Of a stretch of DNA of 64,000 bases, positions 7,434-64,000 are shown piece after piece (the first letter of the stretch is position 1; each line of letters opens with the position of its first letter). The position numbers and the translations under genes are program-made. Where the stretch lies: the NCBI RefSeq assembly GCF_964355755.1, contig NC_092675.1, forward strand, positions 2,576,312 through 2,640,311, read 5' to 3'. Source of the stretch: Antedon mediterranea (taxonomy: Eukaryota > Echinodermata > Crinoidea > Comatulida > Antedonidae). The notes under the pieces were generated by a model that was not told the DNA's origin, did not search any database, and saw only the letters and a list, made by a program, of their open reading frames with translations.

Positions 7434-7689
7434 GACAGCCTTATAAAGTGGACACTTTGTGGGTCGCGATGGTGTCCCCTTAATAATAGGTAATCACATC
7501 ACTTAGAAAATATCTAATCTTACATCTCCTTGCTTTCAACATACATGGTTTACAAAACACTATTAGCATAACTTAGAACTAAATACATTTTAAAGCAAGA
7601 TCTAAGTATCTTTTCAGATTTGTTTTTAAATAATTGAAGAATAAGCAACACAATATGCATTGAAGAATACCAAAATAAATGAATGAATA

Positions 7690-12204: not shown

Positions 12205-15200
12205 TCAACATCTTACATTTGAGTTTGCATTACTTTCTATCACTTGCGATGAATTTGTTTCATTCTGTAAAATAAAAGTACACACAAAAAATTGTTTAAA
12301 AACCATTTAGCCATCAGCGAGGGCAGTATCACTTTTTTTCTTAATAAAGCCCAGCGCTACACTGAATTAAGCGCTACACTGAATTAAGCGATACACTGAA
12401 TTAAACGCTACACTGAATTAAGCGCTACACTGAATTAAGCGCTACACTGAATTAAGCGCTACACTGAATTAAGCGCTAAACTGAATTAAGCGCTAAACTG
12501 AATTAAGCGCTACACTGAATTAAGCGCTACACTGAATTAAGCGCTACACTGAATTAAGCGCTACACTGAATTAAGCGCTACACTGAATTAAGCGCTACAC
12601 TGAATTAAGCGCTACACTGAATTAAGCGCTACACTGAATGAATATGTACTACTGTAATAACAATTTGTGAGTTTTAAATTGTTCGATATAGATGAAATTT
12701 ATCCAAAATAAATTGAGCATATAATATAAATTGGAAACTTGCTACATTCTGTAGGGTTCAAAGGGTTTCTTCCTTTGCTTCACTATGCATTTTTCCATTT
12801 ATTGATTAATAGTCCTAAGTAGTTACATATTAACAGAAGAGGAAATTTCAGATATGATATCATAAAAGAAAATCTCAAATAAAAACACAGAACGCGGACA
12901 ATTTTAAATGTTTAGTTTTTCTCTTTTTAAAATTTTATCAGTATTTTTTTTCTTTAGGTTTTGCCAAGGGTAACCATTCACTATCCTTCTTGAAGGTGAC
13001 AGGTAATAATGTTGTTCACAAGACAAGCATACACAAAATTTAGTCTTTGGGAGTGAAGTTGTAAATTGGCATATATATGACAGGACTTGAACCCAGGACC
13101 CTTGGATTGGTAGCCAAGCATCATAACCACCAAGCCACAACTCCACTCCAATTGATTTAGTACATACCACTGAATATGATGGCGGTGGATTACGATATTC
13201 ATAGTTCCATACATAGGAGTACATAGGGGTATAAGCTGTTACCCCTATCATATCCCCTGGTTCATCATCTTGAATATCCACTGACCCAAAAACACACTCA
13301 GCATAACTTGGAGGTGCTGTAAAAAAAACCACAAAAATAGATGTTTAGAATTTCAAATTTGTACAAATTGGTAAACTATACATTATTTGTAATCTTACAT
13401 TTAAAAGCTGTTTACAATATCAAACTTTATGTGACAAAAAAAATGTGATGTGGCCATAGGTATATGATGTCATAGCACTACCATATTTGGGAATATCACT
13501 ACCATACTTGGGCACATCACACTCTTTTTTGGCAAACTAGATTGATAATGATAGTGTAGAAGGAGCTTTAGATAAATGTGATGCTTGGTTATAGAAAGTG
13601 GTTTGATATATGATGTGGTTTAATAGCTTAAGGAAATCAGACACAAAGAATGTTCAGAGTTTAGGAAATAAAGCATAATTAATCAGAACATTTTAATCAA
13701 TGATGTTTAATGTTAATGTTTATGATTGAAGTTAGTAGCATAATGAAAGACAAGGCCCATCCACTCCATAGTGATTATCAAAAGAACTGGACGGCGATTG
13801 AGGACTGCTCGATGTAGAACACATTAACTTTTTCAAATGTATGAGTGGTTTAACAACAATATTGGCATGGGTTGGAGGCTGACTCACTCCTTGTGGTGGA
13901 ATTCTTCTCAGTTATTGACTATAAGCCATAGGTTCAGTGAACACAGTTTGCCCGTGTGGACTTACAAGAACTTAGTTCATCATTTGAGAAGCAAATGCAT
14001 TCGAATTCGAGAACACTTCCATTAATTATTTGATTCTATCAGGCTTTTTAATCAACTCAGTTACGTCATTTTTCTGTCAGTAATTTTGTAATGATTCTGA
14101 ATAACCTATCATAATTATTTTGACCAATAATTAATTTTGAGGAATTGTATATGAATTTCCTTTTGGAAAAATGAAGTACAATATTTTACCTTCTTGAGTA
14201 CAAATATTACGGAATGTGGCAGGATTGAATCCCAATCCATTTGATTCAGTAGCCATACTAAAGTTGAAGCTATCAACCGCCAACGGGTCAATTGGTGAGT
14301 ATGGCGGCGCCCTCAACGGAACAGTACCAATTACTATAGGAAGGTTTATGTACAAGTTGGTCGCACCAGTAATATCAAGACAAATCTAAAAAAAAAAATA
14401 TGATTTAGTAAAAATATAAATTGAATATAATAATATATATTATTATTATTTTCCCACAACTAATTTCTATACAGAAGAATAACTATCTAAGCTTGGTTCC
14501 CACTATACAGTAGAATAACTATCTAAGCTTGGTTCCCACTATACAGTAGAATAACTATCTAAGCTTAGTTCCCACTATACAGTAGAATAACTATTTAAGC
14601 TTGGTTCCCACTATACAGTAGAATAACTATCTAAGCTTGGTTCCCACTATACAGTAGAATAACTATTTAAGCTTGGTTCCCACTATACAGTAGAATAACT
14701 ATCTAAGCTTGGTTCCCACTATACAGTAGAATAACTATTTAAGCTTGGTTCCCACTATACAGTAGAATAACTATCTAAGCTTGGTTCCCACTATACAGTA
14801 GAATAACTATCTAAGCTTGGTTCCCACTATACAGTAGAATAACTATCTAACCTTGGTTCCCACTATACAGTAGAATAACTATCTAACCTTGGTTCCCACT
14901 ATACAGTAGAATAACTATTTAAGCTTGGTTCCCACTATACAGTAGAATAACTATCTAAGCTTGGTTCCCACTATACAGTAGAATAACTATTTAAGCTTGG
15001 TTCCCACTATACAGTACAATAACTATCTAAGCTTGGTTCCCACTATACAGTAGAATAACTATTTAAGCTTGGTTCCCACTATACAGTAGAATAACTATTT
15101 AAGCTTGGTTCCCACTATACAGTAGAATAACTATCTAAGCTTGGTTCCCACTATACAGTAGAATAACTATCTAAGCTTGGTTCCCACTATACAGTAGAAT

Positions 15201-18200
15201 AACTATTTAAGCTTGGTTCCCACTATACAGTAGAATAACTATTTAACCTTGGTTCCCACTAGAGATGCAACACAAGGACATCAATAAATCAAATCTGACA
15301 TAAATTCAATGCAAGGGATTTAGATGCAATGTAAGTGATTTGACCAATGACAAGCGATGGATTATTTGAACTTTCGCGTGTCATTGGTCAAATCACTTTA
15401 CATTGCATCTACATTCTTGTGCTGGGTCTCTAGTGGGAACCAAGCTTAAGACTGAGACTCCTTCGGAATCCAACAGTGTCCCTTAAATAGAGGTTTTCAT
15501 CTGAATAGTATATAAAGAGTATTTTCACATTATTTAAAAATAAAAAGCTGAAATACTTACACTAAGAAAATACTCAAGCTTGATAATACTACAGTTGGTC
15601 AACGTTGGCGTGATCGCTGGAATTTTTAACAATTTATTACTCCAACTATCTGAAGAGCGCCCTCTAATGGCCTTGCCTTGTATACAGGCAACCGCACTAC
15701 GTACAGACCTCGATTTTCCGTCAGCATAGAACATTGTTCTTTGGTAGAGGGTCGCCTTCGGTTTCATTCTCCTTGCTGAGCCATTTTCATATTCTCCTGT
15801 AATAGCTATTGATTCTCCTGTACAACAGAATAAAGTACTCATTTCCAATTATTGCTACAATACTGAATGTTTAAAGGTCTTTCTACACTATCAAACTTTA
15901 TGTGACAAAAACAGTTACCCATATAATATATTTTTACATATTTATTGAAAAAAAACAAATTCATAGTAATCTATTCACCTGGACAATAACCTTTACGGTC
16001 AGTCTTCACTGACATGCTAATTTGTCCGGCTGCACACAGACCACAGCAAACGGTCTTTTCTTTTGTTCCTACAAGTGGCGTCTGAAATTTAAGATCAATT
16101 AACTTAATTAGTATTGACAATAAATATTTAATAGGGCCTTTTCAAAAGCACTGCAGACAATAGTAAAATTTGGCAACTTTTATTGATGATCATTCGAGAA
16201 CAATTTATGAAAAAAAAAAAGAGATCCTTTATTTGAAATAAAACCATAAGAATGTAATAAACATCCAAGTTCCCAGCTTGAAGGACCAATCATATGCAGG
16301 GCAAAACAAGACAACAATACAAAACGTATACCTACAAGTAATAATGGAGTGTTAATATCAATGTGGTCTATAACGGTAAAGGCCAGCTTGGTACGACTGT
16401 TGAAACCCCATTGTTTGTCCACCTCAGCCTTTAACCAATAACGGATCCTGCCATACTTGCCTTCAAAAGACGTAGCAACCCTCCTAGAAAAGAAAAAAAA
16501 TGTAAAAAATTACTTTTTCTGCATTCTTGTAAATTAACCCTTGAAAAATAAATTACTTGCAATTTCTTGGAAGCAGTTTATCAAGTTAAAAAAAAAACAT
16601 AATGATTTCATACAGTTACAAGGAGTTATCCGCTGAATGCGGATAACTAAAAAAAAATTAAAAATTCTCTGGTTAGAACTCCAAAAAATCCTTAATGGAT
16701 TTATTATATCATGCAATAATTTGACCTTGATGTAAAAGACTTCTTAATGATGTTTTTTTTTTCAAACCAGAATGAGTTATTGCTATATTGAAATAGCATC
16801 AAAATTCTTAATTACTACAGTTAGTTGTTTTGAATGTATAGTAATTACAGTATACTCGACGTGTATTTGCGCCATTGGAATAATTACCCTTCGTCATAGT
16901 ATTTTTATGGAAAGGTCTACTTAAAGACTGACCAAAAAACAACATAATTATGCATATTTCATAGGGTTGCTTAGTATTACTACATTTATTGTACATGGCT
17001 TGCCCGCCACAAGTATCGATTGGAGTAATCCAATTGATGTACAACTTCTAGGGCTCTTGTTTCTTCTTTTTAATTAATTAATTATTAATTATTTATTTTC
17101 AATACTTTATTTTTGTCAAATGTAAGAAGAAATAAATGTTACTTGGAATGAAAGTGTACAATATAATTAAAACAAATAAAAATAATTTGGCATTGGTATA
17201 AACTGGCGTTATGCATCAGTATTTTGATATACCAAAAACATTTGTATGGGTTAGCAGAAGCTTATACCCTTTTCGCAAAATGTAACGACTTGTAACCAAG
17301 TTTGCATAGTGTGAAGACAATTTTCTGGAAAACCCCCGAGATTTCACAGAGTCCCCTGTGAAATACACACCAACAAGAGGCCTGTGTTTTTATTCCGAGA
17401 TTTTCCTAGTTCTTACTGCATATGCGTGTATTACCCTGGTATTCACCAATCATATTAATCAAATAGCGCGCAACTATTCTCTCCTCCAGATGTTTCACAA
17501 GGTTTGAGTATGCGTGTGTGAAAACATGTAATAAGTCGGGAGATCATGCAGATGTGAAAAGGGTATTAGTTCCAAAAATATTTCCATACATGTACAGTAA
17601 ACAATGTTGAACAACAATTCAATTAATGTTAATTGTTATTTTTGTGTATATTTCAACATGTTATTGTACACAATAGAGAGGCCTCTGAAAGGGTTCTGTT
17701 TACCCACAGCGTGTAGACTGTTATTGTAAAGTAGCAAGCCATCTCATTTAAATAAATATTAACAATATAATTATAATGGCCTTTCTTTTAAAATACTGTA
17801 TGTTATTGTCAACTACCTGTATACATTGTATAAAATCTGTGTTAATTGCAGATATAATAAGCAGCCAGAAAAAATATTATGCAATATTGATGCAGGACAT
17901 TGTTAAACTTCTTTCACCAGATTGTTTATCATTGCAATATATAATAATTACAAATCAAGGACATACTGTAAGTGTGTGGCTATGTCTTTAGTCGAGCGTA
18001 AATCCAGTTTTCATGTAATTTTTTAATTTTCCAATGTCAATGAAAACCAGAATTACCAAGACATCCTTATCATAATGTGACATTACAAAATGGCATTTTT
18101 AACTAAAAATAATAATTTTTTTCAGGAGAAAAGAAATGATGACGATGGTAAGTGGGCGTGTCTCACTTGAGGGCGTCCTGGGGGCGGACTGATCCATTAT

Positions 18201-29436: not shown

Positions 29437-29697
29437 TTCGATCAGAGTAGGCATACGAAGATGTTATTATTTCTCCCGTTGGCCTAACACTTCATTTGAC
29501 GTTCGATTAGAGTAGGCCTACGAAGATGTTATTATTTCTCTCCCGTTGGCCTAACACTTCATTTGACTTTCGATGCGAGTTAGGCATACGAAGATGTTAT
29601 TATTTCTCTCCCGTTGGACTAACACTTCATTTGACGTTCGATGCGAGTAGGCATACGAAGATGTTATTATTTCTCCCGTTGGCCTAACACTTCATTT
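29437..29697. repeat. ~66-bp tandem repeat overlapping a gene's 3' end, 4 units
   Basis: The unit begins TTCGATCAGAGTAGGC and contains ACGAAGATGTTATTATTTCT and TTGGCCTAACACTTCATTTG. The fourth unit (29637-29697) includes the stop codon and last nine codons of the sulfotransferase-like gene; the other three lie downstream of its stop. Confidence 0.9.
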
Positions 29698-30810
29698 CCT
29701 TTATGCATCATGTTCCGAAGAATTCTAGGAATGAATTCTTTTGGTTTTAGTGTTAAATCATAACATAGTTTGCTGAAATCAAATGATACAATCTGACTAC
29801 CGCCAATATTGCACTTATGGAGACGTGGTCTAACTCTTTTACACACTACGTCTTTAGTGGATATTACATCGGTAAAGTTAAGGTTGTAGTTGTACGAAAC
29901 TATTAGGTTGCCGCTCTTTCCACTTTTTTCTGAATCAAAACTGCTCAAACAAACATTTGAAAGAAACGATTTAATTTTACGAAAAGCATCAAGATCTGAT
30001 TGAAAATTCGGTCCATAATTTTTTACATGATCGTCAAAACGCCTCCTAAAATAGTCGTACAGTTTCATATCGAGTGCGTTCCAGTTACCGATCTTCAAAA
30101 CAAGATCTTTCGATAACGACACCTGCGAATATCTCTTCTTTTTAGGAAAGTATACAATATCCTCAAATCGCCAGCACATCATCTTCTTCAATATTATTAA
30201 CGATTCGTCAAACATTTCGGTTATCATAACGAAATCAAAATCTGTGTCTAATTTCTTAATTTTTGTAATGATATCATTTGCATTAAGAAGCGATGGATTA
30301 ATTCCCAAATCCCTAATTTGACAATTATGAGTAGCAAATTTCATTTTACTTTTTTTCCAGTTTAGGAATGGATGTTCCATCCACTCTCTTAATCTACTGG
30401 TTTTATTCCCTTTACGTCCTCCAATTGAAAAGTAATCAAAAGCTGATTCAAACTGTGTTACTGGGTTTCGCAATATAGTTACATACGTTGTGTTTTTCTT
30501 CATAAATGAATCAAATACGTCTCTGTTGAATCTGGCGTGTATACTAAATACATTATATTTATAATTAGTGTAATCTCCCTTGCGAATGCCCATTGGTGAA
30601 AATAGTCTTCTTACAACATTGGTGGTTATGCTTTTGTCTGAAAAACTTAAACCTGTAATTGGTACGACAACTTGTAGTTTGTTCTGGAGAGCAAAGTTCT
30701 GCATTATCCACCAAATTGTTGATCCACCTGTTTTATGGGTCTTCAAAAAGACGATGTTCTTCTTTGGTTCACATGTCTGTGCTCTATTGATCTGATTGGC
30801 ATTATAAGCC
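29667..30810 (-). CDS. Galactose-3-O-sulfotransferase-like protein, last coding exon
   Basis: One large exon of about 380 codons on the minus strand. The PAPS 5'-phosphosulfate-binding loop FLKTHKTGGSTI and the 3'-phosphate-binding region YVTILRNPVTQFESAFDYF are those of the GAL3ST (galactosylceramide/galactose 3-O-sulfotransferase) family. Such enzymes are Golgi type II membrane proteins that sulfate terminal galactose on glycolipids or glycans. The frame opens 5' through a strong acceptor (CTCTTTTGTAG|GGCTTATAAT). No in-frame ATG lies between that acceptor and the upstream stop near 30848, so the start codon and membrane anchor must be on an upstream exon that I could not identify. The C-terminus ends NEVLGQREK and lies inside a minisatellite. 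Substrate specificity cannot be read from the sequence. Confidence 0.85.
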
Positions 30811-31699
30811 CTACAAAAGAGTAACACAAACAAAATAAAATATTTTTAAATTTTGTATTAATATTTTTTTTGAGCAACCTGTTGTGTCAATGTCGTGATT
30901 AATTTACGCTACAAAGTATAATTTATTTATTAAATTTTACACTGAACATAGAAATATATTATATATAATATAGTCAAAGAACCAGCATAAAAACCGAAGA
31001 TATGCGTTCTTAGATATAAATAGTTTATTTCTATTGTTCAACGAAAATGTCTCTATAATGACTTTACATTGCGAATTTGTTAGTTTTCCCCTACTACGCT
31101 ATAAACAGAAGAAACAAAATCAGTATTACAGTAACAAATCTAGTTCAGAATGTGAATTCTTCCCTTTCTAATAAACAGAACGAAAATGTTTTGAAATTAG
31201 AAAAAATAAGAAAATAATTAATGTATATACTGACATTTGTTTGTTTGTTAATAAATCAACGTTCGTGCTTCGATGTGGAGCCTCTGTTGGTGATCGTTTC
31301 CACATTCCTAGTATCATTGGTAAGGGAGCTAGCAGTATCCCAATTACAACAACTAAACAAAAAACGTGCTACAAAAATACGAACAAAATTTAGTTACATC
31401 AGGGAGTTGTTATTAAACAACTCCCGGGTTACATTATTCAAAATATATTTTTTTGTTTGTGAAATATAAAACGCTTCACAGTTGGATTTGATTTATTTAG
31501 TTTAATGTGAAAATTATTCTAGATGAAATTAATGAAGAGAAAAGTTTCATTTTCAGTCAAACACCCCACTTTGTTCACATTAATATTTGTATTTAATATG
31601 ATTTAGTCCGATGTGATATACTCGTTCAAAGTAGGCCTAGTTATATATTATCATCCTGTTTATGTAAGTACCCTAACCCTATCAGAGAAAACTCAGTGA

Positions 31700-50192: not shown

Positions 50193-50663
50193 ATGACTTT
50201 ATGCGCTCCTTTTCGACCGGATTCATCTGAATTACTGAATCTAAATGTTGGTGGACATTTCTACACGACAACTCGTTCAACATTAACTCGTTATCCAGGT
50301 AGTATGTTGGGCAAAATGTTCAGTTATCCAGATAGTAGGCCTAGCATGTTCGGGGGGAAGTATGGCAGCCAACAACCAGCACGCCGAGACGATAATAATC
50401 GATACTATATCGATGGAGATGGCCCAACATTCAGACACATTTTGAATTATCTGCGTCGATCAAAACTCATCCTTCCCGATGATTTTAAAGAGTGGAATAT
50501 CCTGATTGCTGAGGCAGATTTCTACCAACTTACAGATTTAAGAACACTTATTATTACCCAAAGAAATAGACAAAAAGTAGTAGATGTGTCTAATTATATA
50601 GCAAGACATGATGGTTTCAACGAATGGAAGCTGGGGCGGTATCAAATCGTGCCTAGCTTTTAA
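50193..50663 (+). CDS. KCTD-like BTB/T1-domain protein, array copy 1
   Basis: Single-exon frame of 156 aa. BTB/T1 domain at about residues 12-125: it opens LLNLNVGGHFYTTTRSTLTR, continues RRDDNNRYYIDGDGPTFRHI and closes AEADFYQLTDLRTL. These are the hallmarks of the KCTD family (nearest in pattern to KCTD6/KCTD21), whose BTB domains form oligomeric rings and often act as cullin-3 substrate adaptors. A ~15-residue insertion (DSRPSMFGGKYGSQQ) lengthens the loop before ARRDD relative to the other copies. The tail after the BTB domain is short (about 30 residues, ending GRYQIVPSF) and lacks the C-terminal domain of copies 3 and 4. A role is not demonstrated; the T1 fold is also found in voltage-gated potassium channels, but no membrane segments are present. 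Confidence 0.85.
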   Translation: MTLCAPFRPDSSELLNLNVGGHFYTTTRSTLTRYPGSMLGKMFSYPDSRPSMFGGKYGSQQPARRDDNNRYYIDGDGPTFRHILNYLRRSKLILPDDFKEWNILIAEADFYQLTDLRTLIITQRNRQKVVDVSNYIARHDGFNEWKLGRYQIVPSF

Positions 50664-53209
50664 TATTAGAGAGAATTAAATACTCGACAATAATGTACTC
50701 TAGTCTTGATGAATTAGATCAACATCAATGGAGGCCTACTGACAAATCTGTGCTTTTCAGAATTCAAAAGTCGTTCTAATTAATTTTCTTTGTAAATAAT
50801 GAATAGCCCTACTATTTCAAGAAATAAATGGAATCTGTTTTCATTAATCAACGCTGTATCTACTAGTAGATATATTAATTGATGAGATTGTACCCATGGA
50901 CAAATGAACATTATATAATCAAGTACCTTTTCAAATTACAGGGGCAGTGACGTAATAGATGTTAATAATAAATATAATTTATTCATAGAAGTACTGATGA
51001 AAGATATCAATCTGTGGCGACAATAGAATGAACTCAAGACCTGGCTATCTTCGTCTTTTGAATAATAGAAAGTTTTGAAAATTTGTTAGGCTAGAAATGT
51101 ACGTTGTAAGATGTGTATATGTTTATTGAAAAATGGTTTTAGTTTTCTAAATTACTTTGTAATACTATAGATAGATGTTAAATATAATTTTAAACATATT
51201 TTGAGAGAAAAAAGGAGATAAAAACAATCGGGTGTTTTTTTTGTGGCAGACCATTTTTACCACCAGTTGAATTTATTGGATACAACATTTATGCCATAAT
51301 GTGTTACGTCATAATGTAATACTACTTGCCGCCATATTTAAGATATCAATATAATTAATAGGCCTAGTAGGCCTACATGCAGTTGCGTGCAGTTTCATTC
51401 TTGTGGTTGACCATCATCGCTAGCATGTTTCAAACTTAAAATAATTGAATATTTAATTGCATGAATGTTTACAATTAAAATACATATTGTTTCCTATCGA
51501 ATGAATGATTTAGAATAAATCCCTCTAATGCATTATTTGGCGTATTTGTGATTCGTTTAATGTGTGGGTTATGTGGATGACTGCTTTATTATAAATAATA
51601 AAAATGATGGCCATACTACATCTGATCTGCACCATTCGTCCTGATATTGATTATTACTTTATTTAGCACCGCCATCAACACGAGTTATTATATTCTTGAG
51701 ACTGGATTGTTGTCTTATTCATGGAGATACTGTATAGTACTGTTATAATCAAGCGTGTATCGCCACACCCAATTAAGTATGGAGCGCCATACAACTAAAC
51801 CGTACATTTCGTATAATTAATGTTCTAACGCCAATTCCATTGAATGATCGAGAAAGTCCATTTTATCTTAATCAAGCTGCTATTTTTTTAAACATAAGCA
51901 AGGGATCTAAGATTAAATTCGCAATGTCGTGTTAGGTTATAGAGTGCATCACTGACATGTATTATACGTATGAAACTCCATATGTGCCAAAATAGACGGA
52001 CTTGCAACGGACAAAAAGTCATTGCGTTAAACTCGATAGCGATAAACTGTTTGAAGAAATGGAATGGGTTTCACAATTATCAACACAGTGTCTACTACTA
52101 TCTAAAGATTGGATCTATGCAGACAGGTTGACTTTTATGAAATTTTAAATATCAGTTGACTTTCAGTAAGAAGGCCTATTACTTTGTTTAATGCCGGCCA
52201 ACTTATAGGCCAGTTGCGTATATATTTCAATAGTTCAGTAATATTTACATTTATTATATCATTTAAATGCTCACGTTTAAAGTAAATGTACTCCCTTAAT
52301 AAAAAATATCTAATTGCATTGTATTGTATGTGTGACGTATTGAAATGTGTGTCTGGGTTTACGTGGAGGCCCTCTGTTTTTATTTGTTGTAAATGTACTT
52401 TGACTATCATCATCATCATCTTTTTATATGAGACAGAACCTCGTGTGATAGTCGCACATGAGTTGGTCACATCTATGCAGCTGAAACACATGTTCACGTT
52501 ATACCTTGTCTGTAGATATGAACCTACTGACAGATATATCGTGTATTAAAGTATTTATTACATGAGCTATACTCGATTCTAGATGACTTGCAATAGTCAG
52601 TTAGACTCTATCTACAGCTGCAGAAACGGGTAATAGCTGTATTTCTTTCTTAGATGTTGTGTGGATGACGCTTAATAGTATTCCACATTTTCCTCTTTTT
52701 CTAAATGAAGACCTAATATTATAGATTTCTAATTTAAATAAGAGATACAATTCTTGAATCCCCCAGTGATGTTGAATCCACAGCCTCTTAGGAGGTGTGT
52801 TTACCTGCAGTATGTTTACCATGTTTAAGAAAAAATAAGCATGTCATGGTTATAGGCCTATGTGAAAGTTATTTTAAATTGTAGAAATATGGTTTTCTCA
52901 TTACTAGGCCATATTAAAGGAACTATTAAGTGTTTAGATACGATGTACATATCCTTAATGAAAGAGTGCTATTGTATTATTTCAATTATTGCTTTCCTTC
53001 TTTCCTGTATTTTATTGTAGCCTATGATAGTGATTTGACAGAATGATGTTCAATTACCTTACACAATGAGAAATGAAAAAAGTTATAGTAAATTATGATA
53101 GGCCTAGGCTACCTGGATCACAGGAAATTAGGGGTTAGGTCTAGGGCAAAATTAAAGTGTTTGCGTAGGAACATTAGGCCTAAAGGGAACGTGAAAAAGA
53201 AATTCTTTC
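50664..53209. other. Intergenic region between array copies 1 and 2
   Basis: AT-rich, with no coding sequence recognised. Open frames at 52135-52549 overlap on both strands without similarity. A possible polyadenylation signal for copy 1 is AATAAA at about 50822. Confidence 0.45.
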
Positions 53210-53352
53210 AAGGCTTGGTTAATTTCCCACTGGGACAAAGCAAGTACGTCGACGCTTGACCAATCATATGTGATGGATTATTCGAATGGCTTAATGTTGA
53301 TCAACTCGCTTACGTTACGCTTAGCCCTTTCGTTGCGTCTAGTAGAACTTAG
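53210..53352. mobile_element. MITE family B, diverged copy
   Basis: Left AAGGCTTGGTTAATTTCCCA; the interior has GCTTGACCAATCATATGTGA and the inverse GTTGATCAACTCGCTTACG; the right end CTAGTAGAACTTAGC is degraded. Confidence 0.5.
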
Positions 53353-53399
53353 CATAAGTCAAAAAGGCAATATTAATAAATGAAAAAACATTTTGAGTA

Positions 53400-53562
53400 T
53401 GTTAAGAAATGAATATGCTAAAATATGATTAGTCATAATATGTTAAGAAATGAATGTTTAAAAATGAATACGTTAAGAAAGGAATGTGTTAAGATATGAA
53501 TACGCCGAGATATGAATAAACGTTAAGAAATGAATACGTTAAGAAATGAGTGTGTCAAGAGT
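53400..53562. repeat. Degenerate minisatellite (ACGTTAAGAAATGAAT-like)
   Basis: About eight imperfect units of GTTAAGAAATGAATA; lies ~400 bp upstream of array copy 2. Confidence 0.8.
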
Positions 53563-53781
53563 GGTGGGAGTTCAATTTCAAGTTCATATAATTTATTCTC
53601 ACTGCAATGAGTGTATATACGAGCGATCATTTGACAATACTTTGTATGTACTGTACTGTGTACATGTATGTTTGTACTTTATATGTACGAATTTTTAACA
53701 TTGACAAAAGATATATGCACTGTATGCCTATACATTATCAAGATTTTAAAAAAAGGGAGGATGGGGTGCTAAAAAAAAGTA

Positions 53782-53866
53782 GTAGCTTATTTTTGTCATT
53801 GTGAAAACGTTGGAATTTTCCGAATATAAATAGCAGTCTCTGATAGATTCCGGTTACCCTTTGCGT
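53782..53866 (+). promoter_or_regulatory. Core promoter of array copy 2, shared with copy 3
   Basis: GTAGCTTATTTTTGTCATTG, then AACGTTGGAA, then TATAAATA (53825-53832), then ATTCCGGTTACCCTTTGCGT about 20 nt on. The first two blocks and the ATYCGGTTACC block recur in the same order upstream of copy 3 (55914-55981). The TATA box predicts a transcription start near 53857. Confidence 0.6.
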
Positions 53867-53971
53867 CTGCAGCGTCCTATATGTACCAATGAATTCGGTA
53901 AACAAGTACAGTATTGGCTTAGACAGCAGTTTCAGCATTTCAGTACATCATTGTTAATCTTAATCTTAATC

Positions 53972-54460
53972 ATGGCTTCACCACTTGCTGTAGGTGCTTT
54001 AACGTCTACCGTTGACGAACCGATGAATCTGGATGTTGGTGGAAGTTTCTACACGACACTTCGTTCAACTTTAATTCGCTATCCAAACAGTAAGCTGGCT
54101 TTAATGTTTAGCAAAGACGATGGTTTACCACCAGTCCGCGACGGTCGATATTTTATCGATAGAGACGGCCCAATATTCCAATACATTTTGAATTTTCTGA
54201 TTGATCAATCAAAACTCTCCCTTCCAGATGGTTTTAAACAATGGGATATCCTGATGGCTGAAGCGGATTTCTACCAACTTGCACAGTTAAAAACACTTAT
54301 AGCTGAAGAAAGAACAAAACGAGAAAGAGAAAAACCAATTGGAAAAAACTACAAACAAAGCGTCGACAATGACGGGAATGCGATAAACATAAATGGAAAT
54401 GTTTCGGGTGAAATGACATTCACAGGAAACAGCTTAGCAAAGCAGAATTGCGGAGATTAG
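53972..54460 (+). CDS. KCTD-like BTB/T1-domain protein, array copy 2
   Basis: 162 aa in one exon if translation starts at ATCATGGCTTCA (53972), which matches the start context of the other copies. The frame is open further upstream, but a TATA box at 53825 puts that stretch in the 5' UTR. BTB/T1 domain at about residues 20-115: MNLDVGGSFYTTLRSTLIRY, GRYFIDRDGPIFQYILNF, AEADFYQLAQLKTL. It is the most diverged copy: NLDVGGSF replaces NLNVGGHF, and the ARRDDNNRY loop is reduced to VRDGRY. The tail (about 45 residues) is highly charged (EERTKREREK), then Asn/Gly-rich (GNAININGNVSG), with no C-terminal domain. Possibly a truncated or regulatory paralogue; function not demonstrated. Confidence 0.82.
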   Translation: MASPLAVGALTSTVDEPMNLDVGGSFYTTLRSTLIRYPNSKLALMFSKDDGLPPVRDGRYFIDRDGPIFQYILNFLIDQSKLSLPDGFKQWDILMAEADFYQLAQLKTLIAEERTKREREKPIGKNYKQSVDNDGNAININGNVSGEMTFTGNSLAKQNCGD

Positions 54461-55913
54461 CAACTGGTTTTGATAACGAGAAACTGCTAACAAGTCATAA
54501 TGAAATATGTTTATATTAATTAAGATACTGTAGTAATATATAGCGAACTGATGAAACCACAATATGTCAAGGGAGAAACTGGCGATCTGAAATTCTGAAA
54601 ACGGAATTCTGTAACGGGGACTGTATATAGTAGTGGTCGAAACTATAGGCATCTTTTCCATATATTGATGATGATAATTTCAAGTTAAAGCAAGATATCT
54701 AGATGAACTTTTTAAATCAACTTGATTGTAACCTATGTTAACTATAGTACAATTCTGGAATTAAGTGTCTACTTGCAGTCTATTTGGAAAAGAGTGTATA
54801 GTGGGAGAACTTTTTAGTCAGGGGACAAGACACTGCAGATGGTTCTTTTCTCTGTATATCAGTGCCGATATAGAACCGTACGATATACCACCGGTAGCTA
54901 GAGTTAGAACTTAAACAGATTTAAAAGAATGGAGAAAGCTATCTACATCGCGTAAAACTCATCTGATCCATAACTGTTAGCGTTATATGTTTATTTTAGT
55001 CATGTTATGTATACTGAAGGCCTATGATTGTTGGCAATGCCCACTTGAGTATGGGGCTTGTAAGATTATAAGTTACGTGGCATATCCATGAATTACTAAA
55101 AGAATATTACTCGAGTATATACTACTGTATAATTGTATGTTATTGTACCGCTAGTGAACAATTATATAGTTACGGTCCTGCAGTAATTGCAGTTGAATAA
55201 GTTTGACATGATCCTTTGCCTACATTTACCAGTTTATAATTTTAGTATAAAATATAGAATCTCAGCAGACTGAAATTATGAATAAAAGCAAATCAGAATC
55301 TTTACAATAGTATCATTAAAAGAATGCAAAAAAAAAAAAATTATGAATCAGATATTTTAGTTGATATTTTTTGTATCTTGTTTAAAAAAATATGTTTATA
55401 CCAAATTTTATCAAGCATGTCATGGTCATATAGATGTTAGGTCAAATTACAGATAGGCCTATAGGCCTAAATGTGGTTTTGTCATTAAGACCTGGGAAAA
55501 TATTAAGGAACTATTAAGTTTTTTTATAGGGTCCTGAATGAATGTCGTTTGGAACATTGTGGTAGAAACCGAATTAATATAACTTTTACGAAAATAATGC
55601 ATATACAAACTCTATATAGAGTATGCAAGTACCTATAATAGGCCTACTATGCATATACAAACTCTATATAGAGTATGCAAGTACCTATAATAGGCCTACT
55701 TAATAAATAACTTAAAGGCTTATTTGTGGTGATATTTTCTCTCTATAGTATGTTCACCGCACAAAATTATTGAATGTAAAATTATCTTGGAAATAAACGA
55801 TAATTTGGTACGCTATCCAGAAAACACATGCTACCGCAGACCTTCGTCGACCATATTCTCACTCCAATATTTTAGCGTATGAACTGTTTATGAAGAGAGT
55901 TAATGTGAATATA
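54461..55913. other. Intergenic region between array copies 2 and 3
   Basis: No gene recognised. Contains a 52-bp direct duplication at 55597-55700 with internal palindrome ACTCTATATAGAGT. Confidence 0.5.
55597..55700. repeat. 52-bp tandem duplication
   Basis: ATGCATATACAAACTCTATA through TACCTATAATAGGCCTACT occurs twice back to back, apparently identical. Confidence 0.95.
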
Positions 55914-55981
55914 GTAGCTTATTTTTGTCACTGTAAATAACGTTGGAACATAAAAGGCCTAATCGGTATAATCCGGTTACC
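55914..55981 (+). promoter_or_regulatory. Promoter module of array copy 3, shared with copy 2
   Basis: GTAGCTTATTTTTGTCACTG, AACGTTGGAACATAAAAGG and ATCCGGTTACC follow the same order and spacing as at copy 2. The canonical TATA box is replaced by CATAAAAG. Confidence 0.55.
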
Positions 55982-56126
55982 AAAGACGGGACCAAAGTCC
56001 AAAGAACCCGGAATTGATTGCGAGTAGGCTACAGTCAAAACTATATAGTTTTCAAAACCTGTGACTAACTCAAGCACAAGAGCGTTCAGTAGTTTACGTT
56101 CAATCATTTTGATTTATCTCATAATC

Positions 56127-57131
56127 ATGGAGTCACCATCGATTTTATCGTCTGCCACTAACGAACTATTGAATCTAAATGTTGGTGGACATTTCTACAC
56201 GACAACTCGTTCAACTTTAACTCGTTATCCAAATAGTATGCTAGGCTTAATGTTTAGCAGCGACAGTAGCTTACCGCCAGCACGCCGAGACGATAACAAT
56301 CGATATTATATTGATGGAGACGGCCCAACATTTCGACACATTTTGAATTTCTTGCGTCGATCAAAACTCATCCTTCCCCATGAATTTAACGATTGGGATA
56401 TGCTGACGGCTGAGGCAGATTTCTACCAAATTCCAGAGTTGATTCAACTTATTGTTGAAAGAAGTAAACAAGTTGAGGTTCATTCTTCTGCCACTGACGA
56501 GTTATTGAATTTAAATATTGGTGGACATTTCTACACGACTACTCGTGCAACATTAACTCGTTATCCAAAAAGTAAGCTAGGCCTCATGTTTGGTGGGCAC
56601 TTACCAACAGCACGCCAAGACGATAGTAATCGATATTATATCGATCGAGACGGTCCGACATTCCGATACATTCTAAATTTCATGCGTCAATCAAAACTCG
56701 TCTTTCCACATGGTTTTAAAGATTGGGATATTCTGATTGCTGAGGCAGATTTCTATCAAATTCCGGATTTGGTTAAATTTGTTAGCGAAATAAGAAAGGC
56801 TAATAATAAATCGCTGTTGGAAGTTCAATTAGTTTACACAGCAGCATCTGTTGAGGCAAAGAAAGTTAACTATTGTTGGAAAGTTTATGGCCAACCTAAA
56901 TTCCTTGATCAATTGCCATCTACAGTAGATTTCAACGGACGTAAGGACTTGAGGATCCTGAAGAAAGAAGATATAGAATGCTCAGATTTTAATAGATCGC
57001 AATTGTTTGACGAGATAAGTAAAATCGGTTTTACATTAACTAATACAGTATCTACAAGCAGTAGCAATGTGAATCTTGGTGGATACTTTGACGGCAAAGA
57101 TAGGTGGATATTTATGAAAGACGACATGTAA
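56127..57131 (+). CDS. Double-BTB KCTD-like protein, array copy 3
   Basis: 334 aa in one exon from ATAATCATGG (56127). Two complete BTB/T1 domains lie in tandem: residues about 13-110 (LLNLNVGGHFYTTTRSTLTR ... AEADFYQIPELIQLI) and about 120-215 (LLNLNIGGHFYTTTRATLTR ... AEADFYQIPDLVKFV). A C-terminal domain of about 110 residues follows, with WKVYGQPKFLDQLPS, KEDIECSDFNRSQLFDEISK and the end KDRWIFMKDDM. KCTD proteins normally have one BTB domain, so the tandem arrangement is unusual. It could supply two subunits of a ring, or link two rings. The C-terminal domain resembles the position and general pattern (F..LF..I...GF...STSSS) of KCTD C-terminal domains, but I cannot name a family. An internal duplication of the BTB-coding part explains the structure. 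Confidence 0.87.
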   Translation: MESPSILSSATNELLNLNVGGHFYTTTRSTLTRYPNSMLGLMFSSDSSLPPARRDDNNRYYIDGDGPTFRHILNFLRRSKLILPHEFNDWDMLTAEADFYQIPELIQLIVERSKQVEVHSSATDELLNLNIGGHFYTTTRATLTRYPKSKLGLMFGGHLPTARQDDSNRYYIDRDGPTFRYILNFMRQSKLVFPHGFKDWDILIAEADFYQIPDLVKFVSEIRKANNKSLLEVQLVYTAASVEAKKVNYCWKVYGQPKFLDQLPSTVDFNGRKDLRILKKEDIECSDFNRSQLFDEISKIGFTLTNTVSTSSSNVNLGGYFDGKDRWIFMKDDM

Positions 57132-57960
57132 CAAGAAAGTTTTAAGTTTCTTTCTCAAAACAATTATAATTACCATAATGCATAAAAAACATTTGTTATG
57201 ATATTATGTTAAAATATGCATAAAATAAATAAGACAGTGAAAATACGATGCCTAATTTCACAAAATCTTTAGAAATTAAAATGCATTCGTTGTGACAAAA
57301 ATAGGAAATAATGAACTAAACATCATAACAATGTTTTGTTTCCTTTTTTTTTTTAGAAATAAGTTAACAATGTAACCCTGATCGCAGTAGACACATGCTC
57401 CTCAGTAGGCCGGCCTACTTTAATGTTAAGCTCTGTCTACACTATTAAACTAGTTTGACAAAAAAAGTGTGATGTGCCCAAATACGGTAATGATATATTT
57501 AAATATGGTAGTGATATGAAATCATCATGTCCATATGTGGGCACATCATATTGTTTGATTGTGTCTAATGGCCACAATGGAAATAAGTTTGACCTTTGGT
57601 TACTGTTTTGTGTTACCCTGAATTCCTTCTTTGTATTTTATATGTTGTGTTATTTTGTGAATTCGAATAAAGAAAGAAAAGAAAAGAAAGCTTTATTTTA
57701 TGCATTTAATATTTGTCTCATTTCATTCCTATTTTAGTTTGTGTTTATTGTTTCTGTTTATATTGTCTTTAAATACTGTAGGCCCACTAATATTGAATAA
57801 TATTATCTTTTACTTTTAAAATTACTAAATAATATATCATTGTTTAAATCATGTCTAATTGCAATGCGTGTATGGTGGGTGTTTGTATAATATGTTAAAA
57901 TAAATTTAATGAAAATCAAAGTTTAGCCTATATAAAATTGATATAATTATTTGGCCCACC
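57010..57960 (+). repeat. Segmental duplication, unit 1
   Basis: From the last codons of copy 3 through its 3' flank and a family A MITE to about 57960. It is repeated in order at 58225-59020, for example GCATTCGTTGTGA, AGACACATGCTCCTCA, TGTCTTTAAATACTGTAGGC and TTGCAATGCGTGT. Confidence 0.85.
57427..57570. mobile_element. MITE family A (in duplication unit 1)
   Basis: Left AAGCTCTGTCTACACTATTA, interior GTGATGTGCCCAAATACGG and ATGGTAGTGATATGAAATCA; the right end is degraded (ATATTGTTTGATTGTGTCTA). Confidence 0.8.
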
Positions 57961-58044
57961 ACTCTACACTATAAAAATGTTTGGGTACGAGTTGGTGGGT
58001 ACGAGTTGGCATGGGTACGGGTTGGCCTGTATTCCAATTTAGGC

Positions 58045-58175
58045 CTAACCCTGGTTACAGACAAGGGCGTATCTCCATACTTCGGTTTGGATTCAGTTTT
58101 TTCTTAGTTTCTACTGTATGATCAGCGCTTATAGCGAGGTTTCACAACATACAACGCTTTTTAAATCCAGGATAT
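58045..58175 (+). mobile_element. SINE family S2, 3' fragment, diverged
   Basis: GTATCTCCATACTTCGGTTT, GATCAGCGCTTATAGCGAGG and TTTCACAACATACAACGC resemble the 3' half of the S2 SINE, ending in a TAAATCCAGGATATTAT tail. Confidence 0.45.
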
Positions 58176-58224
58176 TATAATATTGATAATATTCTGCGTA
58201 TTTACCAGATATATACTACGACAC

Positions 58225-58365
58225 AATTGATTGACGAGATATGTAAAATCGGTTTTACATTAATTAATACAGTATCTCTACAAGCAGTAGTATTGCAAAT
58301 CTTGGTGGATACTTTGACGGCATGCATCAAAGATAGGTGGATATTTATGAAAGACGACATGTAAC
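58225..58365 (+). pseudogene. KCTD-like C-terminal fragment (relic of copy 3 duplicate)
   Basis: Matches the last ~45 codons of copies 3 and 4: LIDEICKIGFTLINTVS, then frame-disrupting changes (CTCTACAAGCAGTAG, a GCAT insertion), then DRWIFMKDDM and a stop. No BTB-coding sequence precedes it. It lies at the start of duplication unit 2, so it is a by-product of the segmental duplication rather than a separate gene. Confidence 0.85.
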
Positions 58366-58576
58366 AAGACAGTACTGTACTTTGTACTTTTATTATAAAA
58401 TATAAACTATTAATATAATGCATTCGTTGTGAAAAAAATATGAAATAATGAAATAAATATCATAATAATAACAATGTTTTTGTTTCCTTCTTTTTTTTAG
58501 AAATAAGATAACAATGTAACCTTCCTGATCTTATTAGACACATGCTCCTCATCAGGACCGGCCTACTTTTAATGTT

Positions 58577-58743
58577 AAGCTCTGTCTACACTATCAAACT
58601 AGTTTGACAAAAGGTGTGATCATCGTGCCCAAATACGGTAGTGATATACCCAAATATGGTAGTGATATGACATCATCATTTCCATATATGGGCACATCAC
58701 ATTTTTGATAATAAAGTTTGATGTGTAGACAGTTTAGGCTTTA
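58577..58743. mobile_element. MITE family A (in duplication unit 2)
   Basis: Left AAGCTCTGTCTACACTATCA, interior GGTAGTGATATGACATCATC, right GTTTGATGTGTAGACAG. Occupies the position homologous to the MITE at 57427, so the insertion predates the duplication. Confidence 0.85.
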
Positions 58744-59313
58744 TTTTATGCAATTAATAATTGTCGTTGCTCATTTTCATTCCAAATATTCATAGGGTAT
58801 GTGTTTTGCCGTTTATGTTGTCTTTAAATACTGTAGGCCTACTACTAATATTGAACCATCTTTTACTTGAAATTACTAAAATAAATATACCATTGTTTAA
58901 AACATATTTTTTGCGTATGTCTATTGCAATGCGTGTGTGGTTGGCGTTTGGGGAATATGTTAAAATAACGATATTTAATAAATTTACTGAAAATCAAAGT
59001 TTATATAAAATTGATATATTCATTCTACACCACCACATTAAAGATTACTATTTACAAATATCTTATTTTAATTTTTTTATAAAATATTATTCATGGAGGA
59101 GGGATAGTCATGAAAAATTCACATTAGATAATAATTTTAGCCATTCATCAGAGCAGGAGAAATAAGTTGAGACTCTATATGGTCGGAGGAAGTAGATAGA
59201 TATTCATAGAGGAAGTAGATGGATATTCATGGAGGAAGTGTAACCCGTTTCCTCTATAATATTTCCGCGTGATCTTAAACAAAGGAATCTGGGAAAAACC
59301 ATAATGTGACGAA

Positions 59314-59323
59314 TATATATAAT
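59314..59323 (+). promoter_or_regulatory. TATA-like box of array copy 4
   Basis: TATATATAAT about 35 nt upstream of the conserved 5' UTR exon (AAGTATCCAGTATCATCCAG), the same arrangement as at copy 5 (63268). Confidence 0.5.
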
Positions 59324-59349
59324 ATGTAGTATTGTTAGTTTGTGCTCTA

Positions 59350-59552
59350 ACGGCAAGTATCCAGTATCATCCAGTACAACCACAAGGTATAAGGTAGATA
59401 ATTTATTTATGGTTTTTGTTGTTGATAATGGATTATTGATTCAACTGGAATTTTATCTAATGTAATTATTGCCGTGTTATTGTATTGTAATGCAAGACGA
59501 GCATCATGATTTCCACTTTATCATAATCATAATCCTAATCATGTTTTCGTAG
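59350..59552 (+). other. 5' UTR exon and intron of array copy 4
   Basis: Noncoding exon AAGTATCCAGTATCATCCAG then TACAACCACAAG, with a donor at 59386|GTATAAG or 59393|GTAGAT. The intron ends GTTTTCGTAG at 59552, two bases before the ATG. Copy 5 has the same exon sequence (CAGTATCATCCAGTACAACC) and the same acceptor placement. Confidence 0.7.
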
Positions 59553-59554
59553 CC

Positions 59555-60226
59555 ATGGCTTCATCTTCTGCAACCGAATTGTTGAATCTAAATGTTGGTG
59601 GACATTTCTACACGACAACTCGTTCAACTTTAACTCGTTATCCAAAAAGTATGTTGGGCTTGATGTTTAGCAGCGGCAGTAGCTTACCGCCAGCACGCCG
59701 AGACGATAATAATCGATACTATATCGACGGAGATGGCCCAACATTTCGACACATTTTGAATTTTCTGCGTCGATCAAAACTTATCATTCCTCATGGCTTC
59801 AAAGATTGGAATATCCTGGCTGCAGAAGCAGATTTCTACCAAATTCCAGACTTAATTAGATGTATTAGCGAAAGAAGAAAAGGTACAAACCAATCCTTAT
59901 TGGAAGTTCAATATGTTTACACAGCTGGAACTAGCATTGAAAAAAGAAAAACAAATTTTATGTGGAGAGTCTATGGCGAATCTAAAATCCTTGACAAATT
60001 GTCATCTATAGTAAAATTTGATGACGGTTATGGTGATGACATGAGAATAATGCGTAAAGAAGATATGGTATGCTCAGATTTTACTAGGACACAATTGTTT
60101 GGGGAAATAAATAAAATCGGTTTTACTTTCATTAGCACAGTATCTACAAGCAGTAGTAATGCTCATTTTCCTGGAAACTTCGACGGCAAAGATAGGTGGA
60201 TATTTATGAAAGACGACAGTAACTAA
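59555..60226 (+). CDS. KCTD-like BTB/T1-domain protein, array copy 4
   Basis: 223 aa, coding in one exon that begins two bases before the ATG, after a 5' UTR intron. One BTB/T1 domain at about residues 7-105 (LLNLNVGGHFYTTTRSTLTR, RYYIDGDGPTFRHILNFLRR, AEADFYQIPDLIRCI). Then the same C-terminal domain as copy 3: SLLEVQYVYTAG, WRVYGESKILDKLSS, DFTRTQLFGEINKIGF, ending KDRWIFMKDDSN. Its length and one-BTB architecture are those expected of a KCTD6/21-type protein. Nucleotide blocks of the BTB region are identical to copies 1 and 3. A polyadenylation signal may be AATAAA at about 60321. Probable cytosolic oligomeric adaptor; cullin-3 binding is inferred from the family only. Confidence 0.9.
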   Translation: MASSSATELLNLNVGGHFYTTTRSTLTRYPKSMLGLMFSSGSSLPPARRDDNNRYYIDGDGPTFRHILNFLRRSKLIIPHGFKDWNILAAEADFYQIPDLIRCISERRKGTNQSLLEVQYVYTAGTSIEKRKTNFMWRVYGESKILDKLSSIVKFDDGYGDDMRIMRKEDMVCSDFTRTQLFGEINKIGFTFISTVSTSSSNAHFPGNFDGKDRWIFMKDDSN

Positions 60227-63100
60227 GAAGGGTCCAATAACGTATTTACCAGTTCATACTTTTATTAAAAATATAAAATATTAACAACTATAACATTACA
60301 CAATGTGGGTGTTTAACCAATAAAAATGATTCTATTTAGAATACCGTATACATACATACCCTGTTGATGTTGGATCAAATTATGGAAATGAAATATGTTT
60401 TCTCATTACTATATTATATGCCAATAATTAAGAATGCAATTTTTTAGATAATATTTGCCAAATCTTGTTTTAAAAATTCATAGAGTTGGCCAAGTGTTAC
60501 CAAATATATTTCTTTTTTCACCTATTGAAAATCTCTCGAAGAATAAGTACTGTCATTGACTAGTAATATAATAAAAGCATAATAATGCGATTATTATATA
60601 CAGTGGGTACAGTGATGCTATAAACACGTGTATAATCAGTTGATACAAACTATATAATACCGGTAAATTTATTGTGTTATACTTATAGAACTAAATAAAA
60701 CTTTAGAATTTAAAATAGCACCTATATTAAGTAGCGAATTAAACTCATTATCTTTGTAAATAATATCACATATTATTCCGACTTTATACAGTAATGATTT
60801 GCATAATATTATTCAATATACTGTCCAATAAACAGCTTTAAAACTAAAAAAAACTCTCAATAGGCCTATTTTGTTTTTCCTGAGGGCAGTAGAATACTTT
60901 TCATAATAAATGTTTCGAAGAGATGACCTGGTTTCATAAGGATGGAGCTAAACATAGTAGTAGGCTACATTTCGTGGTTCGGGAATCCTCAATATTGATT
61001 TGAACCATCAAGGTTTGGTATGTTAATCCCATGCAACAAAAGAATATACATGATTAGGCTGCAGGCCTATATAACAACATGAGATCATAATATAATATGT
61101 ATCTATCACTATCAGTGCTTCATAACAATGTCATTGGACGATAATAAAAACAAGTTTACTATAATAATGGTCACTTCAGTCTAATTATTAATTAGTATAT
61201 TACTATGATATAACAATCAATAAACTTATACCTGATCCATACACCATATTCATATTAGTAATCACGTTTTGGCCTACTACTAACTTCAAAATGCTTCTGC
61301 TGAAACAACGCTCACGCAGCCTATTCAGTATTAAATGCTTCTCCTGATATGCAAATACGCCCGCGAATACCACAACAATAGCAATGCGATATATTGCGCC
61401 ACCAATAATATAACAAAAAAAAACCATACAGAAAATTTATCAAGCTCAAAATTAATAGTACTACCAAGAAATAGTTCTATTGCATTATTGCATAATCACA
61501 TAATAAAGTACTAAAACACTCTCACACGCACTAACTTTTTGGGGCGATTTTTATGTACGAAAATTCCTATAGGTGTAGGTATGAATTTCGTTAAAGTTAA
61601 TGGGTTGAGTCTAGCTGATATTATGCATATTCTACTGTTCGTCTCTACACTCAATAAGCAAATACCACGTTCTGTGTCACATCCTATGTGTTATTCCTAG
61701 AATTGTTTTAACTGCTGTATCATCAGTCATTATCAATAGTTGTATTGTACAGAATATATGTACGTGTTTCCTTGAACACGGTAGGCCTAAGTGATTAACT
61801 GCACCTTTTATATTAAATAAATTAATCAACCGATCAAACATATGTATGTATATGTACAACAGGTTTATGTCCAGAGACAATAAACTGAGAAAATAACAAT
61901 TGACTAAACTGCTAAAACCTATATTATCTGAACCCAGAGAAGAGTGAAATTGTCACAATGTTGGAGACTGACATCAGATATTTGGAAGCATTATAAAATT
62001 AATATTATTTAAATACGGTTACGTATGTAACTTTTGACATCATAATGGTAAACAAAAGAAGTTAGTTAAAATACGACAAATATTACGACGACGTAACAAA
62101 CATCCGATAGGAAACTTTTTACTTGAATCTACAATACAACAGCTTCCACAATAAGTTATAAATATGAATTTATTTGAGCTTAAATATTAAATTGTTACCA
62201 TATTAATTTATAATGCTTCAAATACAGTATCTTCTTCTTGCCTCTTCTAAGCAAGTAAGCCGTTTGACTGAATTGTTACTACTGTACTTTAGTCAATTCC
62301 AATCGGAAGAGGGTTCGCACATATTAAAGGGTTAAATTCAGATAATTAATATTTAGGTTTTAGACATGAAACAGCCCGCACCTTATTGTTTCTGGACATT
62401 AAACAGTACGAGAATCGCCTTTAACATGTACTTGTTTTACCACATTTATTTCATTGATTGATTGATTCAATAAAAAAGGTACAGTTAACCACAGTGTTCA
62501 AGGAAAAGGTTTTCCGTACAATTCAACTATTGATAAATTGATTGATATTAAATGATGATGTAGCATTCTAGGAATAAAACATAGGATGTGACACAGAACA
62601 TCGGTATCAAATACATCTTTGTATTATTATTGTATAATTATTGAGCGTATAAACTAATTATTTTACTATAGAATATAATGCATAATCAGGTTGTGACATT
62701 TGACCCTTCCTATCCCTTCCTAAGTTTTAGAGTTTCCGATTAAAACTACGTCGTCTCTATACTTGTTCAATAGTTGGAGCCGGATAATGTCTGTTTACTG
62801 AAAAATTCCAAAAGAACGGTTTACTTCAAAAATCGGTTTCGATGGCGTGTCTCCATTTTTTCAAACCGATCGGAATCAATTTAAGTTTTTAAACCGTATT
62901 TTAGACCTGTTTCTCATAAATATCGTTCTCATGTAAAAAAAATGAATGTAGGCCTATTCGAGTCCCGTATTCATTCGTTAAAATTTGGTTTCGGAAACAA
63001 AAATACGTCGGAAACATGTATGACGTAAGAATGAGAAGTTTTAGTGGGCGTCTATATTTTTGAGATTTCTACAAAGGGTATTGTTTCTCTCTTTCTCGAA
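60227..63100. other. Intergenic region between array copies 4 and 5
   Basis: AT-rich, no gene recognised. Contains an inverted repeat (61655-62610). The hydrophobic minus-strand frame at 61203-61427 has no similarity or splice context and is not called. Confidence 0.45.
61655..62610. mobile_element. Inverted-repeat element, ~150-bp diverged arms
   Basis: Left arm: TTCTGTGTCACATCCTATG, TTATTCCTAGAAT, CCTTGAACACGG, TTAACTGCACCTTTT. Right arm in inverse: AAAAAGGTACAGTTAACCAC, GTTCAAGG, ATTCTAGGAATAA, CATAGGATGTGACACAGAA. The spacer is about 620 bp without coding capacity. Confidence 0.7.
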
Positions 63101-63108
63101 ACACCAAT

Positions 63109-63142
63109 GTGGCTGAGGTAGATTTCTACCAAATTCCGGATC
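63109..63142 (+). pseudogene. Isolated BTB-domain fragment
   Basis: GTGGCTGAGGTAGATTTCTA then CCAAATTCCGGATCAG encodes VAEVDFYQIPDQ, the AEADFYQIPDL motif that ends the array's BTB domains. Nothing recognisable flanks it, so it is a relic of a deleted or converted copy. Confidence 0.65.
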
Positions 63143-63267
63143 AGCTATATTACCACGAAACCTTCTCTAAGAAAACAGAATGTAGGAAAGTAGAACATGA
63201 CACATCAGTGATTTTAATCATTTAATATAATATCCAATGAGCTTATAGATTTCCCGATCTATAGGTG

Positions 63268-63275
63268 TATATAAG
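63268..63275 (+). promoter_or_regulatory. TATA-like box of array copy 5
   Basis: GTATATAAG about 27 nt upstream of the conserved 5' UTR exon start near 63295. Confidence 0.55.
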
Positions 63276-63293
63276 CTCATTCATATGTCTCAT

Positions 63294-63624
63294 AAGTACA
63301 GTATCATCCAGTACAACCGCTAGGTAGGTAGATAATTTAATTTATGATTTCATTTTTGGATTACAATTTTTTATTTTTCTAGTTTAATGGAATTTAAACA
63401 AGTTATATTATTATTTATTATTTATTTATTTATTTTATTCAGTTGTCAACCAACAGCGATGAAACCGCCACTAACAGGTTGAATCTAAACATTGTTTTCG
63501 TTAGGGCCTACTGTTTTAAATGTTTGCGTATAATAGGCCTATAATAATTCGACTTGTGGACGAATGAAGTTATCTTATATCTTATTTTCTCTTAACTTAA
63601 TCACAATATTCATGTTTTCACCAG
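63294..63624 (+). other. 5' UTR exon and intron of array copy 5
   Basis: Noncoding exon AAGTACAGTATCATCCAGTA then CAACCGCTAG, donor TAG|GTAGGT at 63323/63324; the intron ends TTTTCACCAG at 63624, two bases before the ATG. Exon and splice layout match copy 4. Confidence 0.7.
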
Positions 63625-63626
63625 CC

Positions 63627-64000
63627 ATGGCCCCACCTTCTGCCACTGAAGTACTGCATCTAAATGTTGGTGGACATTTCTACACGGCAACTCGTGCAAC
63701 ATTAACTCGTTATCCAGACAGCATGCTATACTCAATGTTCAATAAGAAGGGCAAGACTGTCGTTCAACCACCACCCCAAGACGATAATAATCGATATTGT
63801 ATCGATGGAGACGGCCCAACATTTCGACACATTTTAAATTTCTTGCGGCTATCAAAACTCATACTTCCTAAAGATTTTAACGATTGGGATATGCTGACGG
63901 CTGAAGCGTTATTCTACGAAATTCCAAAGTTGATTCAACTTATTGTTGAAAAACGGGAAAAAGATTCTTCTGAATTGTTGAATCTAAATGTAGGTGGACA
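63627..64000 (+). CDS. KCTD-like BTB/T1-domain protein, array copy 5 (3' end outside window)
   Basis: 124 codons visible from CCATGGCCCC. The first BTB/T1 domain spans about residues 7-108: VLHLNVGGHFYTATRATLTR, QDDNNRYCIDGDGPTFRHIL, then AEALFYEIPKLIQLIVEK, where the usual ADFYQIP is altered to ALFYEIP. After a very short linker (KREKDS) a second domain starts with ELLNLNVGG as the window ends, so this is a second double-BTB gene like copy 3. The loop before PPPQDD is longer (NKKGKTVVQ). The C-terminal part cannot be seen. Confidence 0.85.
   Translation, partial: MAPPSATEVLHLNVGGHFYTATRATLTRYPDSMLYSMFNKKGKTVVQPPPQDDNNRYCIDGDGPTFRHILNFLRLSKLILPKDFNDWDMLTAEALFYEIPKLIQLIVEKREKDSSELLNLNVGG

Follow-up and report, generated by a model that had tools for sequence, protein, structure and literature searches.

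A 64,000-base stretch of DNA (C6:2576312-2640311 of a 354-Mb animal genome; here, the window) ends in an array of five KCTD-like genes in which single-BTB members lie beside genes encoding two BTB domains and one C-terminal domain (CTD) in the same chain. On balance, and with moderate confidence, we favor the view that the array belongs to a lineage-specific KCTD expansion, that its double-BTB genes arose by internal BTB duplication, and that the encoded proteins act as oligomeric substrate adaptors.

The five copies lie head to tail on the + strand at 50193-64598, as delimited by stop-to-stop frames and Pfam matches, and each is a single uninterrupted, intronless coding exon (Table 1). BTB_2 (PF02214) scores far above the Pfam cut-off in all of them, with 63 bits (E 3e-17) in copy 1, the same values in copy 2, 60 bits (E 2e-16) in copy 4, and two stretches in copy 3 that together reach 128 bits (1.7e-37). 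Copy 3 also contains an internal repeat with a period of 330 bases and 83% match (TRF). Five BTB_2 genes with such scores and a 330-base repeat cannot be a product of chance. The preliminary description of this DNA, which reported five same-strand KCTD-like genes with single- and double-BTB layouts, is borne out for gene number, strand, and domain order, as is the diversity of the paralogues. Copy 5, interrupted there at position 64000, is completed as a double by the assembly DNA past the window, finishing 598 bases beyond its edge; no sixth copy occurs in the next 20 kb of assembly past copy 5, and a whole-genome protein search found no more copies near the array. The HMM check suggested earlier recovers BTB_2 in all five copies but not the CTD, which has no Pfam match. 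No other reliable Pfam domain is present in the copies, and the frames stop after the CTD, leaving no channel or Kelch segment, consistent with soluble KCTD proteins.

Table 1. Positions of the array genes, their parts, and related loci (window positions unless a contig is named)
Feature	Position	Strand	Description
Copy 1	50193..50663	+	156 aa; BTB with extended alpha2-beta3 loop; tail truncated
CTD remnant of copy 1	50815..50869	+	IGFTL.NTVSTSS stretch; 1-base deletion
Copy 2	53972..54460	+	162 aa; BTB, then unrelated tail
Copy 3	56127..57131	+	334 aa; BTB1-linker-BTB2-CTD
Copy 3 BTB1	56169..56459	+	
Copy 3 BTB2	56505..56789	+	Loop MFGG..PTAR, nearest that of the human KCTD6 reference
Copy 3 CTD	56802..57128	+	Also in copies 4 and 5 and in paralogues on C11/C5/C4
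Orphan CTD fragment	58206..58373	+	Frameshifted; tandem duplicate of copy 3 3' end
Copy 4	59555..60226	+	223 aa; BTB-CTD, the canonical KCTD layout
Copy 5	63627..64000, on to C6:2640909 (window-equivalent 64598)	+	324 aa; BTB1-BTB2-CTD
Second array	C11:17484673-17494593	-	Five related KCTD genes, one with two BTBs
Third group	C11:18615578-18620884		Two intact KCTD genes and e2, with three in-frame stops

Elsewhere, the window holds a single-exon galactose-3-O-sulfotransferase gene (29670-30845, - strand; PF06990, E 1e-49), a cyclophilin-type isomerase gene of several exons (1391-2763, - strand), an Arrestin_N exon (16183-16509, - strand; E 1e-11), and near-perfect tandem arrays detected by TRF at 6858-7455 (82 bases), 12353-12639 (17 bases), and 14467-15261 (36 bases).

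Traces of loss and local duplication lie between the genes. Copies 1 and 2 had been described as BTB-only, which holds for their coding frames, but copy 1 adjoins a decayed CTD remnant located ∼150 bases past its stop codon, at the expected CTD position. Local DNA alignment of this remnant with the CTD of copies 3 and 4 beats all 200 shuffles, and copy 1 looks like a truncated gene that lost its tail rather than one that is simply BTB-only. A weak CTD match at 52058-52099 was dropped in favor of the positional remnant, and a match 3' of copy 2 (55224-55260), which corresponds to AT-rich DNA past the copy 4 stop codon, was discarded. The orphan CTD fragment between copies 3 and 4 was overlooked in the earlier account; here, positions 57000-57140 match 58224-58373 at 89%, and the DNA further downstream is duplicated to about 59024.

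The array is one of several in the genome, which consists of 11 chromosome-sized contigs plus small ones. With copy 4 as the query, the whole-genome search returned 20 matches from 26 candidates, all of which were scored, and the clade comprises ∼15 genes in three arrays (one on C6 and two on C11) together with singletons on C5 and C4. In the second array, the CTD of one gene (d1) is frameshifted; the double (292 amino acids counted from ATG) lacks, in BTB1, seven residues (GCFYTTS) of the beta1-beta2 hairpin. Relatives in viral contigs amount to one weak fragment. Since a separate KCTD1/15-like gene is present on C8 and a KCTD8/12/16-like gene on C5, the expansion probably represents neither of these groups. 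The genome also has a CUL3 exon, which lies on C5 and has Cullin-3 as its top match (E 5e-24). Several repeated cullin exons occur at C5:3244897-3404653 and C1:30517910-30522798; the C5 exons that were examined are closest to Cullin-4, which suggests duplication of cullin-4.

Sequence comparison indicates that the array family is probably a canonical, KCTD6-like KCTD family (KCASH cluster), with human KCTD6 and KCTD21 represented by non-database reference sequences. In the BTB tree, built with these references and with a KCTD12-like branch unresolved, the clade is split from KCTD1 at 100/99 and falls on the KCTD6/KCTD21 side. A profile of the expansion CTD matches the KCTD6 reference at E 2.7e-5 (best of 1000 shuffles, 1e-3), and the same profile did not detect the KCTD21 reference. 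When the single-BTB members are combined into a profile, human KCTD1 matches over positions 9-202 at E 7e-33, a score to which the CTD contributes only ∼5 bits. For copies 3 and 4, AlphaFold with window-only alignments gave models (pLDDT 48 and 53) of no use for domain arrangement; Foldseek searches with them ranked KCTD1 first, with a TM score of ≤∼0.3 over the full chain.

The history of the doubles is recorded in their BTB domains. Among the four BTBs of copies 3 and 5, the 5' part groups gene-wise at 13/13 A/B sites and the 3' part groups domain-wise at 11/13, a switch that was matched by 0 of 20,000 permutations. Trees were built for half-domains whose boundaries were set after the site pattern had been seen, and they are therefore no independent test of it: in the 5'-half tree, BTB1 and BTB2 of copy 5 group together (94/88), and a grouping by position can be rejected (p 4e-4 and 1e-3), while in the 3'-half tree BTB1 joins BTB1 (84/89) and BTB2 joins BTB2 (83/75) across copies 3 and 5. 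The simplest reading of these sequences is a single doubling before copies 3 and 5 split, followed by conversion inside copy 5. This conversion homogenized the 5' half of both BTBs, including the alpha2-beta3 loop, which contacts Cul3 in other KCTDs (PMC10856315). The data reject (p 2e-7 and 3e-4) a single clade for the first BTBs of copy 3, copy 5, and the C11 double, so that doubling probably occurred at least twice, separately in the C6 and C11 arrays, with the caveat that conversion within arrays could mask a shared origin. Under the favored reading, genes with a single BTB and a CTD would have duplicated locally, the BTB segment (∼330 bases in copy 3) would have been duplicated in frame within the gene to give the BTB-BTB-CTD layout in two arrays, and the CTD would have been lost from some copies through frameshift or partial duplication.

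Not all copies are equally constrained. Lineage dN/dS values for the BTBs, derived from parsimony counts over ∼60 to 70 codons and consequently with wide intervals, are 0.43 for copy 1 (P(≥1) 0.013), 0.13 and 0.41 for BTB1 and BTB2 of copy 3, 0.17 for copy 4, and 0.21 and 0.16 for the C11 double; these four genes are under purifying selection. Copy 2 (1.48; CI, 0.78-3.55) is probably about neutral and decaying. Copy 5, in which constraint on the BTBs is undetectable (0.85 and 1.16), keeps an open frame and is fast-evolving. Over their full length, copies 3 and 5 give a pairwise dN/dS of 0.63 (CI, 0.45-0.87), and the CTD alone gives 0.87. The double frames of both genes (334 and 324 codons) are intact; in simulations of neutral drift, a 334-codon frame remained open in ∼1% of runs with 0.1 substitutions per site and in 0/500 with 0.3. 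The double arrangement seems to be maintained by selection where both BTBs are constrained.

The strongest alternative is birth-and-death evolution of the array, with unequal exchange generating the doubles only in passing and giving them no role of their own. In its favor, copy 2 is neutral, the BTBs of copy 5 are unconstrained, and degenerate pieces include the CTD remnant of copy 1, the orphan CTD fragment, the frameshifted tail of d1, and e2 with its three stops. Against it, copy 3 and the C11 double each have two constrained BTBs (0.13-0.41), and the double frames of copies 3 and 5 are open. We consider this explanation possible but on the unlikely side.

Assemblies of KCTD BTB domains are usually pentamers. 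The isolated KCTD6 BTB is reported to be tetrameric (PMC3838848), and both the oligomer number (four or five) and the mixing rules are debated, with no experimental structure of any KCTD hetero-oligomer (PMC13361646). The domains assemble by end-on packing of beta1-beta2 hairpins (PMC5664961), and Cul3 is contacted by the alpha2-beta3 loop and the alpha4-alpha5 hairpin of one subunit and by alpha1 of the next (PMC10856315). We infer cullin-3 binding, ring filling, and a client role for the array proteins. BTBs would pack side by side and carry cullin-3, and the fast-changing CTD would pick the client. A double chain would link two adjacent ring positions covalently, with one CTD per two BTBs, which would alter stoichiometry and client valency. 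Two doubles could form a four-BTB ring, and two doubles plus one single-BTB paralogue could form a five-BTB ring; by simple arithmetic, five-membered rings should not be closable by doubles alone, as each contributes two BTBs. Co-assembly of the array paralogues is plausible, given the established hetero-oligomers of KCTD6/11/21 (PMC13361646). A more demanding version appears improbable: the doubles would be covalently paired subunits that fix the ring, closing a four-BTB ring as two doubles or needing exactly one single-BTB paralogue for a five-BTB ring, the array would encode an obligate mixed cullin-3 adaptor having fewer client-binding CTDs than cullin sites, and conversion would match the two halves.

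Cullin competence was judged here solely from loop length and prolines. Long or stiff loops are associated with failure to bind Cul3 in KCTD8/16 and KCTD1/15 (PMC10856315). By these rules, BTB2 of copy 3, whose loop is nearly like that of the KCTD6 reference, appears able to bind cullin, as do the C11 genes. Copy 1 has a very long cullin-facing loop, the loops of copy 5 exceed that of copy 4 by two residues and contain PPP, and these two proteins may assemble without binding cullin-3. An alternative is that the doubles no longer act via cullin-3 and form a compact, non-ring scaffold for other partners, as in KCTD19, a known multi-BTB KCTD that is considered a monomer unable to bind Cul3 (PMC10856315). 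The copy 5 loops would fit such a protein, as would the loss of GCFYTTS in the C11 double, from the hairpin that packs against the ring neighbor (PMC5664961). The copy 3 BTB2 loop, with its resemblance to a Cul3 binder, does not, nor do the recent origin of the duplicates and their closeness to single-BTB paralogues, a situation unlike that of KCTD19; we judge a non-cullin scaffold somewhat less likely than simple birth and death. Selection of copies 1 and 2, which have no tail, as partners for co-assembly with the doubles is improbable, given the decayed CTD of copy 1 and the neutrality of copy 2, despite the constraint still acting on the copy 1 BTB and the existence of KCTD hetero-oligomers (PMC13361646), and the earlier picture of two clean BTB-only partners does not hold as stated.

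The doubles join two BTBs covalently in a natural protein that otherwise has the canonical BTB-CTD form, and they apparently arose twice. This makes them test objects: the assembly of a double would show the use of even versus odd rings and the effect of CTD number per ring. The array also offers a case of gene conversion spanning the loop that faces cullin in known KCTDs. A partial literature search found no description of tandem, double, or two-BTB KCTD genes of this sort. Multi-BTB KCTDs are already known (KCTD19), but the papers searched contained no BTB-BTB-CTD member of a canonical ring-forming cluster.

Like KCTD11 and KCTD21, the array genes have a single coding exon. The array clade further resembles KCTD6/KCTD21/KCTD11 in its BTB_2 sequence, TLTRYPDSML helix, and YxIDxDG core, and it resembles the KCTD6 reference in the tail motif GFT(I/L)..T..(n)..WTF. 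It differs from KCTD6/11/21 in the double BTB of three genes, the tandem arrays, several CTD-less copies, and divergent loops. A further hallmark of the KCASH subfamily is suppression of Hedgehog via HDAC1. KCTD6, 11, and 21 and KCNRG constitute cluster 2, and KCTD6, 11, and 21 bind Cul3 and form selected hetero-oligomers (PMC13361646, PMC10856315). KCTD1/KCTD15 provide the best solved-structure match over BTB and CTD, no KCTD6/KCTD21 structure being among the PDB matches, but a separate KCTD1/15-like gene lies on C8. The preliminary statement that known KCTD proteins carry one BTB is incorrect, as KCTD19 has three (PMC10856315, PMC13361646) and thereby shares with the doubles the possession of more than one BTB per chain. 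KCTD19, however, is a long chain with three diverged BTBs, whereas the array doubles, at 324-334 amino acids, combine one small CTD with two close BTBs that derive from a recent internal duplication.
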